DNA of 61,177 bases. It comes from an uncultured Bacteroidales bacterium (GTDB lineage: Bacteria > Bacteroidota > Bacteroidia > Bacteroidales > P3). Position 1 is the stretch's first letter, and each line of letters opens with the position of its first letter. The notes under the pieces are model-generated. The model did no database searches and was not told where the DNA came from. It was given only the letters and a program-made list of their open reading frames with translations. This document shows positions 59,236-61,177 of this stretch, piece by piece. The stretch lies in contig ONQD01000011.1 of the NCBI GenBank assembly GCA_900319865.1, positions 1 to 61,177 on the forward strand, read 5' to 3'. The translations under genes and the position numbers were made by a program.

Positions 59236-60009
59236 ATGAAAAAAGTATTCTCTCTCTGTCTGTTAGTCGTGGCATCGATGGGCATGCTCTTCGCGCAGTC
59301 CGATGTCAAGGCGGATTTTTCGTCTGTCGCCACCTCGGGACAGGTGTTATATTACAAAATTATTGATTACGGCGAGGTGCATGTGTGGCCCCACAGCGAC
59401 AACCCCGAGCTCCTGGGCGGTTATATCAAGATTCCCCGCACGGTGAAGTTCGAGGGTCAGAACTATATTGTTACCGGCATCGGCGACAATGCTTTTGCCT
59501 TCTGCATCCGCATCCAGGGCATCGAGCTGCCCACCACCATGTTCTTCATCGGCGACCGTGCTTTCTTCCATTGCACCGACCTCCGCGTGATTCAAATGCC
59601 CAAAACCCTTACCACTATCGGCGAAAGTGCTTTCGAGGGCTGCACCTCGCTAATCGATGTAGTTATGCCCAATTCCGTGATAGAGATGGGTGCCAATGTC
59701 TTTAAGGATTGCGACAATGTGCGCCATTTTGTCATCTCGCAGGGTCTGACCGAAATACCCGAAGGAGCTTTTATGAACTGCAAGTCGGTGACCGACTATT
59801 TCATCCCTGCCTCGGTCACTGCATTGGGATGCAACGCTTTCGATGGCTATGTGAACCTCAAAACTGTCACTTTCTTCGGCAATATCCCTCCCGAACCCGA
59901 ATGCGAGCCCGCCTTTGGCCGCGAAATCCCCATCTATGTGAAATCCCAGGCCTTCGACCAATACAAAGCCTCCTACCATTGGGGGCAATATGCAATCAAG
60001 GCAATGTGA
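59236..60009 (+). CDS. Secreted BspA-like leucine-rich-repeat protein
   Basis: 257 residues from ATG 59236 (MKKVFSLCLLVVASMGMLFA); a longer frame overlapping polA is rejected. After the signal peptide come BspA-type LRR_5 units: IGDNAFAFCIRIQGIELPTT, IGDRAFFHCTDLRVIQMPKT, IGESAFEGCTSLIDVVMPNS, and two more. The end (IYVKSQAFDQYKASYHWGQY) is typical of this family. It is likely surface or periplasmic; binding partner unknown. A strong terminator follows. Confidence 0.9.
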   Translation: MKKVFSLCLLVVASMGMLFAQSDVKADFSSVATSGQVLYYKIIDYGEVHVWPHSDNPELLGGYIKIPRTVKFEGQNYIVTGIGDNAFAFCIRIQGIELPTTMFFIGDRAFFHCTDLRVIQMPKTLTTIGESAFEGCTSLIDVVMPNSVIEMGANVFKDCDNVRHFVISQGLTEIPEGAFMNCKSVTDYFIPASVTALGCNAFDGYVNLKTVTFFGNIPPEPECEPAFGREIPIYVKSQAFDQYKASYHWGQYAIKAM

Positions 60010-60037
60010 TATTTTTTCTAATCGACACCTTTTTTTG

Positions 60038-60077
60038 CCGGACCATGAACCCCTCTTCATGGTCCGGTTTTTATTTT
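60038..60077 (+). terminator. Intrinsic terminator of the LRR gene
   Basis: CCGGACCATGAA (60038-60049) pairs perfectly with TTCATGGTCCGG (60056-60067), followed by TTTTTATTTT. Confidence 0.9.
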
Positions 60078-60093
60078 ATTTTTCGCCCAACGC

Positions 60094-60173
60094 CGCCACC
60101 GCGAGTCCCCTCTTGAGAGGGGTACGGCGAAGCCGTGGGGTATGTATCGAAAACAAATACAGAAAGTCCATAG
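60094..60173 (+). repeat. Repeat copy A1 of the DUF559-associated family
   Basis: Core: GCGAGTCCCCTCTTGAGAGG, then a GGCGAAGCC mini-hairpin, then GGGGTATGTATCG and a CAGAAAGTCCAT tail. CCCCTCT/AGAGGGG forms the main stem. Confidence 0.85.
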
Positions 60174-60181
60174 AGTTTTCT

Positions 60182-60280
60182 CAAGCATAGACAAACGGAC
60201 CGCCACTGCGAGTCCCCTCTTGAGAGGGGTACGGCGAAGCCGGGGGGTATGTATCGTAAACCCAATACAGAAAGTCCATA
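60182..60280 (+). repeat. Repeat copy A2
   Basis: Same core as A1, with an extra upstream part (AAGCATAGACAAACGGA) shared with copy A4. Ends in CAGAAAGTCCATA. Confidence 0.85.
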
Positions 60281-60288
60281 TAATAAAA

Positions 60289-60399
60289 GGACTATTACAA
60301 TATATGCTGGCTCCGCCAGCGTTATACATACCCCGCCACTGTCGTGGCACCCCTTTCGAAAGGGGACGCTGCCGCCGTGACGCTTGTACGGTCATGTAC
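60289..60399 (-). repeat. Repeat copy B1 (opposite orientation)
   Basis: Read leftward it has the A layout: GTCCCCTTTCGAAAGGGG, then a GCCAC/GTGGC hairpin, then GGGGTATGTATAACG, then CTGGCGGAGCCAG. CCCCTTTCGAAAGGGG is a perfect palindrome. It lies 8 bases from A2 with no gene between. Confidence 0.85.
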
Positions 60400-60407
60400 A
60401 ACGGACT

Positions 60408-60483
60408 GCAACCGCGAGTCCACTCTTGAGAGGGGTACGGCGAAGCCGGGGGGGTATGTATCCGAAAACAAATACAAAGAGTC
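60408..60483 (+). repeat. Repeat copy A3, directly upstream of the DUF559 gene
   Basis: A-type core with one change (GAGTCCACTCTTGAGAGGGG) and GGGGTATGTATCCG. It ends 36 bases before the endonuclease start. Confidence 0.85.
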
Positions 60484-60519
60484 AAAATACTAAATTGGGT
60501 ATTGTGTCGTTAATCGAAT

Positions 60520-60954
60520 ATGATTTACAATGAATCTGTATTGCAAGCACTGGGTATAGATACTGACGGTTTGGTTTATTGCGGTGAGTTTCCTCCATAT
60601 AATCCCCGTCTCATACCATTAGCACGGAATCTTCGTACCAGAGGAACCAAGGCTGAAGCCATGTTGTGGAAAGTGCTGAAGAATCAACAGACGGGATATA
60701 CATTTACTCGGCAGAAGCCGATATTGAATTTCATAGCAGATTTCTATTGCCATCAATTGAGGACAGTGGTTGAGGTGGATGGATTTACCCATTTTGAAGA
60801 GGAAGACTATATCGACGATGTTGAGCGTGACAGACAAATGGCTCTTATAGGCATTAGGACAGTTCGAATCCCGGATCAGGATGTTAGACGGAATCCAACC
60901 GAAGCAGCACAGAGGATTTTCTTTGAGATTGGAGTTGATATTCCAATGTTATGA
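60520..60954 (+). CDS. DUF559 endonuclease-domain protein
   Basis: 144 residues. PLARNLRTRGTKAEAMLWKV, FTRQKPILNFIADFYCHQLR and VVEVDGFTHFEEEDYIDDVE match DUF559, a Vsr/restriction-endonuclease-like fold. The core acidic and charged positions (DFYC, EVDG) are in place, so activity is plausible. It is flanked on both sides by inverted copies of one hairpin repeat family. By analogy with REP-associated transposases it may act on those repeats; this is inferred, not shown. Confidence 0.88.
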   Translation: MIYNESVLQALGIDTDGLVYCGEFPPYNPRLIPLARNLRTRGTKAEAMLWKVLKNQQTGYTFTRQKPILNFIADFYCHQLRTVVEVDGFTHFEEEDYIDDVERDRQMALIGIRTVRIPDQDVRRNPTEAAQRIFFEIGVDIPML

Positions 60955-60961
60955 TGGAATA

Positions 60962-61068
60962 GGACTATTGCCATTTATGCTGGCTCCGCCAGCGTTATAC
61001 ATACCCCGCCACTGTCGTGGCACCCCTTTCGAAAGGGGACGCTGCAGCCGTGACGCTTGTACGGTCAT
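60962..61068 (-). repeat. Repeat copy B2, directly downstream of the DUF559 gene
   Basis: Nearly identical to B1, from GGACTATT through the CCCCTTTCGAAAGGGG palindrome to GCTTGTACGGTCAT. It starts 7 bases after the DUF559 stop. Confidence 0.85.
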
Positions 61069-61107
61069 TTGTATCCTTAACCCCGCCACCTCTACACTTA
61101 TAATACT

Positions 61108-61177
61108 CAGGCATAGACAATCGGATTGCCACCGCGAGTCCCCTCTTGAGAGGGGTACGGCGAAGCCGGGGGGTATG
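61108..61177 (+). repeat. Repeat copy A4 (cut by window end)
   Basis: Contains the CATAGACAA upstream part shared with A2 and the full A core; the sequence ends at GGGGTATG. Confidence 0.85.

Follow-up and report, generated by a model that had tools for sequence, protein, structure and literature searches.

Among bacterial interspersed repeats, one close counterpart of the locus reported here is the REP sequences with their RAYT enzymes, in which gene-less inverted pairs (REPINs) are dispersed through the genome and the repeat type is matched to the RAYT lineage. The accessible part of one study describes a GTAG or CGTC tag at one end of the REP palindrome, and CGTC-tagged REPs as apparently being without a dedicated transposase (PMC3733652). 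Another small nuclease family may serve these CGTC-tagged REPs. Our guess for such a nuclease is GIY-YIG.

Repeats of another class, BoxC/PIT/TM, have been known in Escherichia coli since the 1990s. Under the name of intrastrand-triplex motifs they were described from E. coli and more than 260 genomes by Holder et al. 2015, and the accessible part of that paper counts 23 TM_ECO copies in strain MG1655, with five inverted pairs that each join a type A to a type B motif, and contrasts the 29 copies of strain 55989 with a single one in IHE3034 (PMC4666352). The same part of the paper reports no mobility genes near the motifs, and a triplex that is stable in vivo finds no support in its data (PMC4666352). 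Within Enterobacter, too, the numbers in print vary greatly. As for DUF559 proteins, in the accessible portions of the respective papers a role in very-short-patch repair was hypothesised for VsrA of Caulobacter (PMC12907096), one DUF559 gene was placed in the EDxHD family (PMC9403480), and repeated transposase/DUF559 segments of Legionella were found to be mutation hotspots, perhaps via recombination (PMC12308824).

The window analysed in this study is the whole contig ONQD01000011.1 (61,177 nucleotides) from an uncultured Bacteroidales bacterium (assembly GCA_900319865.1). In its last 1.1 kb (60,094-61,177) a single repeat family, composed of a hairpin and a G-rich box (G-box), is present in four A copies and two B copies around one intact DUF559 gene. 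The first-pass annotation of this DNA had described six copies around a single 144-residue gene, the order B1(-), A3(+), gene, B2(-), A4(+), and A and B copies that align after reverse-complementing; repeat search, open reading frame and Pfam (E 1.2e-22) agreed with each of these. The complete order is A1(+), A2(+), B1(-), A3(+), gene, B2(-), A4(+). The A copies constitute a four-copy direct family (60073-60144, 60180-60251, 60386-60457 and 61106-61177; 72-93% identity to the reference), the B copies a two-copy family of 111 nt with 95% identity (60285-60395 and 60958-61068), and A and B are inverted repeats, 73% complementary over 44 nt. In the A unit a hairpin (CCCCTC-loop-GAGGGG or similar) is followed by a second short hairpin and then by the GGGGTATGTAT box, and the B unit has the same design in the opposite orientation with an extra hairpin. 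The features are as follows.

60101 to 60150, forward strand: A1, a single A unit, with hairpin at 60107-60122, second hairpin and GGGGTATGTAT box.
60201 to 60260, forward strand: A2, left unit of the gene-less pair, with hairpin at 60214-60229.
60201 to 60386, no strand: the gene-less inverted pair A2-B1, from repeat alignment and folding.
60306 to 60395, reverse strand: B1, right unit of the gene-less pair, with ATACATACCCC box at 60324-60334 and hairpin at 60350-60365.
60409 to 60465, forward strand: A3, left unit of the gene-bearing pair, with one mismatch in the stem.
60520 to 60954, forward strand: the DUF559 gene between A3 and B2, 144 aa, from open reading frame, Pfam and structural model (Vsr/EDxHD-type nuclease fold predicted).
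60979 to 61068, reverse strand: B2, right unit of the gene-bearing pair, with hairpin at 61023-61038.
61131 to 61177, forward strand: A4, left unit of a further pair, ending at the contig end, from repeat alignment.

The better parse of this array is two inverted pairs, the gene-less A2-B1 and the gene-bearing A3-DUF559-B2, and in the latter the gene occupies the position of the short linker in the former. As the window is the whole contig, A4 was cut off by the assembly. Folded as single-strand DNA, the A2-B1 pair (60200-60380) formed one structure (z -6.05 against shuffles) in which the two boxes base-pair together. A unit finder, which passes over A3 for its one stem mismatch, placed all five TATG-box units that it detected within the last 1.1 kb of the window; 50 first-order Markov resamples of the window averaged 0.04 such units and never had more than one. 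We concluded that the clustering of the repeats in the last 1.1 kb is not due to chance. An RNA-family reading was rejected, since a search of 59900-61177 against Rfam gave no hit with an E of 0.1 or less. Directly behind an LRR-like gene, ahead of the first A unit, lies a terminator-like inverted repeat (60038-60067) with perfect 12-bp arms and a 6-bp loop.

The window protein, encoded by an open frame of 144 codons, matched Vsr weakly in Pfam (E 0.08), and Y1_Tnp (PF01797, HUH tyrosine) was absent from its Pfam matches at E up to 1. Foldseek, given an AlphaFold model (pLDDT 91.7, pTM 0.85), retrieved 3hrl (E 6e-4), which is an endonuclease-like Neisseria protein, and the I-Bth0305I catalytic domain (3r3p; E 0.03, TM 0.74 by target). 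The same two structures were matched in a PDB hmmsearch with a profile of 13 family members (3hrl, E 4e-29; 3r3p, E 7e-06). Residues E46, D74, E85, D87, H91 and D100 were invariant in both DUF559 alignments, one of which comprised the window and 31 of 80 named loci. A Vsr/EDxHD-type nuclease fold is thus predicted for the window protein. With the EDxHD homing endonuclease I-Bth0305I it shares profile and fold similarity, including homology to the catalytic domain, and with Vsr the weak Pfam match. It differs from I-Bth0305I in being a 144-aa protein without added DNA-binding modules, in being encoded within repeat pairs, and in having no tie to one conserved host gene, and no intron was noticed on reading of the loci. 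A defence function was also considered and rejected: the PADLOC matches were weak and concerned parts of larger proteins (DpdF, E 9e-05; mREase_II, E 0.0014), and YcjD, the DUF559 protein of E. coli, had none.

DUF559 genes are associated with these repeats well beyond the window. In the best 80 of 566 loci, which come from many phyla and are biased to the query and to Bacteroidota, a hairpin and G-box unit was found within 250 bp of the gene at 62 of the 70 loci used (the others had flanks cut by contig ends), and on both sides at 41. Displaced control windows in the same loci had a unit in 25 of 404 cases and units on both sides in one. The preferential bordering of DUF559 genes that the first-pass annotation had suggested is accordingly present across phyla; no unit was found within 250 bp at 8 of the 70 named loci. 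The box was mostly directed at the DUF559 gene, the nearest upstream unit of these 70 loci (from the best 80 of 566) being in plus orientation in 42 cases and minus in 6, and the nearest downstream unit minus in 40 and plus in 15. A clade of the window's genus was an exception, its box being directed away from the gene, which still lay between two units. An inverted-repeat score of at least 16 was reached at 38 of the 66 loci with flanks not cut by contig ends (of the 80), compared with 2.5% of the displaced controls (n = 244) and 7.6% of the mismatched ones (n = 330). Three more loci came from a plasmid collection: units stood on both sides in Neisseria and downstream only in Sinorhizobium, and none with a proper box was found in Azospirillum. 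Two records listed as plasmids in this collection are chromosome-sized (NZ_CP141089.1, 4.9 Mb, E. coli KE47; NZ_CP119142.1, 2.2 Mb, N. gonorrhoeae).

The box after the G-run was of different types in different DUF559 lineages (TGTG, TGGG, TGGT, TTGT, ATG, ATT, AGG, TATG, TGAG and others). On a tree of 110 DUF559 domains, with few columns and many open forks, and with labels counted for 70 domains (34 unlabelled, 6 singletons) and 48 named ones, 18 changes of box type were required as against a mean of 51 in 300 shuffles (minimum 46), an agreement slightly inflated by two loci that were present twice (L100/L208 and L101/L042). Across phyla, the distribution of box types mirrors the DUF559 tree. 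When each of 35 loci was compared with its nearest DUF559 outside its own phylum, 30 shared the box with it, as against 3.7 expected; this could equally well reflect recognition or horizontal transfer of the whole element. Whether by transfer or by recognition, gene and repeats travel together. Genome-wide, the TGGT repeat occurred in all six genomes whose DUF559 has a TGGT box and in none of 18 others. The TGTG repeat occurred in 7/7 TGTG genomes, in 4/4 TGGG genomes and in 3/13 others (7/17 of those labelled otherwise). Its presence in one of the three, a Pontibacter genome, is explained by a second DUF559 gene, found by a repeat-only search and enclosed by a facing repeat pair 400 bp apart.

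The repeats extend beyond the surroundings of the gene and are dispersed through the source genome. A search with the B sequence gave 24 matches, namely the two in the window, 20 other B copies and two weak, A-like ones. Since 12 of these 20 B copies had a facing A within 170 bp, and eight were without an A partner in that distance, we concluded that the natural unit is an inverted pair and that some B copies are solitary. DUF559 had a single match in this draft genome (84 contigs, 92% complete). In a survey of the genus, DUF559 was detected at E 1e-9 in 23 of 120 genomes. Twelve of them carry the DUF559 clade that matches the GGCCTCACCCCC-type repeat, and these contained 0, 1, 1, 14, 15, 21, 26, 28, 31, 33, 39 and 65 copies (median 23.5), three of the twelve thus having just 0-1; in the genome with 39 copies (G100) the box of its own DUF559 is AGAG and not TGAG. 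The 11 genomes with other DUF559 clades had at most 3 copies, and the 97 without DUF559 had a median of 0 and a maximum of 8, with copies present in 25. The repeat number in the genus tracks the matching DUF559 clade and not RAYT: in 70 of the 120 genomes it was uncorrelated with the number of Y1_Tnp genes (rho 0.14, p 0.25). A link between repeat number and the presence of DUF559, as the first-pass annotation had envisaged, was therefore found for the matching clade, and repeats of the GGCCTCACCCCC type were far rarer where the gene was lacking. The window-type repeat was present in small number in some genomes with no DUF559 detected. It occurred in 6 of the 120 genomes, of which the source genome (21 copies) and G188 (8 copies) have DUF559, and G114 (5), G189 (5), G099 (1) and G132 (1) have none detected, which indicates that repeats can outlive or outrun the gene.

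Sites of insertion were compared in the fabF-fabZ-fabG operon, read in 30 of 109 genomes with a FabZ match. Seven of the 30 carried a DUF559 element between two genes, at two different junctions, and 22 were without a unit of the local type. Six of the seven elements start at or within 3 bases of a stop codon, and in the seventh (G014) the fabZ frame ends within the element. In G162 gene-less units were located at fabZ|fabG, the junction that bears the DUF559 gene in other genomes. G155 has a gene-less pair at fabF|fabZ in addition to its gene-bearing element, and this pair has the inner sequence AAAAAAGTCCTC in common with the elements of G155 and G169 that bear the gene. The same operon junctions are thus found empty, with a gene-less element or with a gene-bearing one. 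At fabF|fabZ of another genome (L218, from G108), up to about 500 bp upstream of fabZ, we observed a small ORF flanked by TTAATTCTTCATT-like inverted repeats, at a junction where DUF559 sits in two sister species. The ORF looks like what we take to be a four-helix-bundle family, and together with its repeats is possibly another gene-in-repeat system.

Elements were also found inside conserved metabolic genes, the frames of which run on through the inserted repeat array and DUF559 (L035 1057-2721, L207 1090-2700). An epimerase (G100) aligned to residues 5-238 and 253-335 of 5u4q, and an HPPK (folK; G157) to residues 121-202 and 208-264 of 2cg8, in the first case with DUF559 and repeats and in the second with DUF559 in between. 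At the window site, the 1.5 kb that follow the LRR gene contained no TATG-type unit in 16 relatives (~71-76% DNA identity; those of 19 whose match reaches the end of that gene), and one of them (L194) had a unit-like match of another type inside an ORF. A precise empty site for the window element was abandoned, the intergenic DNA of the relatives being too diverged to give a junction. The idea that sites would be empty in relatives was mostly favoured by these 16 genomes and by the fab operon.

Our preferred explanation, which we regard as probable, is that the DUF559 nuclease mobilises the hairpin/G-box pairs as RAYT does REPs, the whole being a mobile repeat system. The element would be an inverted pair of hairpin and G-box units around either a short linker or a DUF559 gene. 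The short-linker pair would represent the non-autonomous form, with up to tens of copies per genome, and the DUF559-bearing pair the autonomous form, with one or a few. The DUF559 protein would recognise units carrying the box of its own type, probably when single strands or cruciforms expose them as hairpins, and would bind and cut them there. Such cutting would allow copying of the pair to new sites, whether the gene is present in it or not. We infer that it is DUF559, and not another factor, that acts as the mover. Counting against this account are the DUF559 loci with no unit nearby, the repeats in genomes where no DUF559 was detected, the solitary B copies, the matching-clade genomes with few repeats, and an insertion without a visible target-site duplication.

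The EDxHD relationship makes cutting plausible, and for the same reason homing into gene-less pairs is a real rival, to which we give roughly one chance in five. According to it, DUF559 is a free-standing homing endonuclease, related to the EDxHD family, whose gene enters gene-less pairs through repair of the breaks that the enzyme makes there, and the repeats spread by some other route. The profile and Foldseek matches to 3r3p, the single DUF559 gene as against about 20 gene-less copies in the source genome, and the fabZ|fabG junction, gene-less in G162 and gene-bearing in others, are all consistent with homing. Homing alone, however, leaves unexplained that gene-less pairs vary among species and strains and that they increase with the matching nuclease, and neither an intron nor a fixed cognate gene was noticed at the loci.

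Mobilisation by DUF559 was further weighed against the less probable alternative, at about one chance in nine, that another factor, be it a resident RAYT or replication and repair, moves the repeats and that DUF559 is cargo often trapped in them. RAYT-type genes (Y1_Tnp, PF01797) are present in 62 of 149 genomes of the family, including the source genome with four matches, and the persistence of repeats in some genomes lacking DUF559 would also fit. RAYT-type genes of the family, however, had a G-box unit at only 8 of 23 loci (23 of 30 used) and on both sides at 1, whereas family DUF559 genes had one at 22 of 25 (25 of 30 used), on both sides at 18, with no unit within 250 bp at 3. Of 30 RAYT-type loci 24 were read, and any inverted repeats that flanked them belonged to other kinds. 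The absence of correlation between Y1_Tnp number and repeat number, and a box type that tracks DUF559 phylogeny across phyla, likewise argue against cargo. Several RAYT-type genes (L060-L089) have short palindromes of their own, e.g. CCCCGTAGGGG. A third alternative, in which a Vsr-like DUF559 serves in repair and the repeats are its immobile loading or regulatory sites, agrees with the hypothesis put forward for Caulobacter VsrA in the accessible part of that paper (PMC12907096), and we consider it very improbable in view of the patchy distribution of DUF559 (23/120), the elements inside conserved genes, the presence/absence polymorphism of the repeats and the occurrence of a single box type in several phyla.

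The system would work like REP/RAYT without being a member of it. In both, inverted palindromic repeats border the gene of a small nuclease, inverted pairs lacking the gene (BIME/REPIN; here A2-B1 and 12 of the 20 B copies elsewhere) are dispersed, and the repeat type is matched to the enzyme lineage. In contrast, RAYT is an IS200/IS605-like HUH tyrosine enzyme and the protein here a DUF559 of PD-(D/E)XK/Vsr type, and the repeats are tagged with the G-box instead of GTAG or CGTC. Membership was rejected, as there was no HUH match and the RAYT-type genes of these genomes border other repeats. The REP/RAYT-like reading of the first-pass annotation is therefore only partly supported: the repeats track and border DUF559, while the mobilising role is deduced and descent from REP/RAYT does not apply. 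Insertion sequences and MITEs similarly comprise gene-bearing (autonomous) and shorter gene-less forms with both ends in common; here, unlike in those, there is no recognised transposase, and no target-site duplication was seen at the recA-recX site of E. coli. In the literature covered, which took in few subscription journals, no paper was found that links DUF559 to these repeats or puts a Vsr-like nuclease in this role.

The first-pass annotation did not include the broader class with which the repeats belong and of which the BoxC/PIT/TM motifs of E. coli are a part. YcjD matches Pfam DUF559 at E 1.4e-49, and its gene, located between sapF and fabI wherever records were read, was present in 3365 of 5426 E. 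coli genomes. The 3' end of ycjD runs into a BoxC-like sequence, after which a unit fitting the TM_ECO pattern precedes fabI; in K-12 the units are on the 3' side only, with none upstream. The published TM pattern, CCCTCNCCC-N3-6-GGGNGAGGG-N3-GGGNGAGGG, is matched by the unit at 2617 of L249, beside an E. coli ycjD, and had no match on either strand of the window. BoxC/PIT/TM and the window repeats have in common a C-rich 5' hairpin arm followed by a G-rich box, an intergenic location and inverted pairs of A-type with B-type units, and in E. coli BoxC/PIT/TM directly adjoins a DUF559 gene. What sets the window units apart is a GGGGTATGTAT box preceded by a second hairpin, and they miss the published pattern. 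The relevance of triplex formation is doubtful, because of the in vivo data in the accessible part of the paper (PMC4666352) and because the window box does not mirror the stem.

We lean, somewhat less firmly than for mobilisation in itself, towards the view that hairpin/G-box repeats, BoxC/PIT/TM among them, form an ancient class of mobile DNA that spans phyla and is independent of HUH, DDE and recombinase enzymes, and that DUF559 proteins, YcjD included, are its dedicated mobility nucleases, each lineage recognising its own box. If so, a very widespread class of bacterial interspersed repeats would have its mover, a family still named 'protein of unknown function' would have a role, and a second, unrelated enzyme would have arrived at the REP/RAYT way of life; if cutting were shown, this would be a new class of mobile DNA. 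E. coli K-12 holds both ycjD and published BoxC copies, and the link is testable there.

Further BoxC-like places numbered 13-30 (median 21) in 37 chromosomes with ycjD and 2-23 (median 6.5) in 22 without, from 60 records sampled evenly from 5422 with one plasmid record dropped; this contrast probably follows phylogroup and is not independent evidence. BoxC insertions are polymorphic for presence and absence in E. coli. Of 5426 genomes, 1623 contain, at more than 80% coverage, an allele between recA and recX with one TM unit and a decayed partner; its flanks are shared by three sampled strains that lack it; in the filled allele a short stretch is replaced and no target-site duplication was visible. 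The ycjD site itself was unusable as an empty site, as strains without ycjD have the eef operon at that place according to the accessible part of its description (PMC12817139). The gcvP-ygfF BoxC site was not a clean empty site either, gcvP being followed by bglA in two of three records and by a transporter gene in the third. Between yggL and yggN (L259 447-706, L266), strain EC556 has a BoxC pair and two other strains, including K-12 AB1157, have a REP-like element, as if one repeat type had replaced the other.
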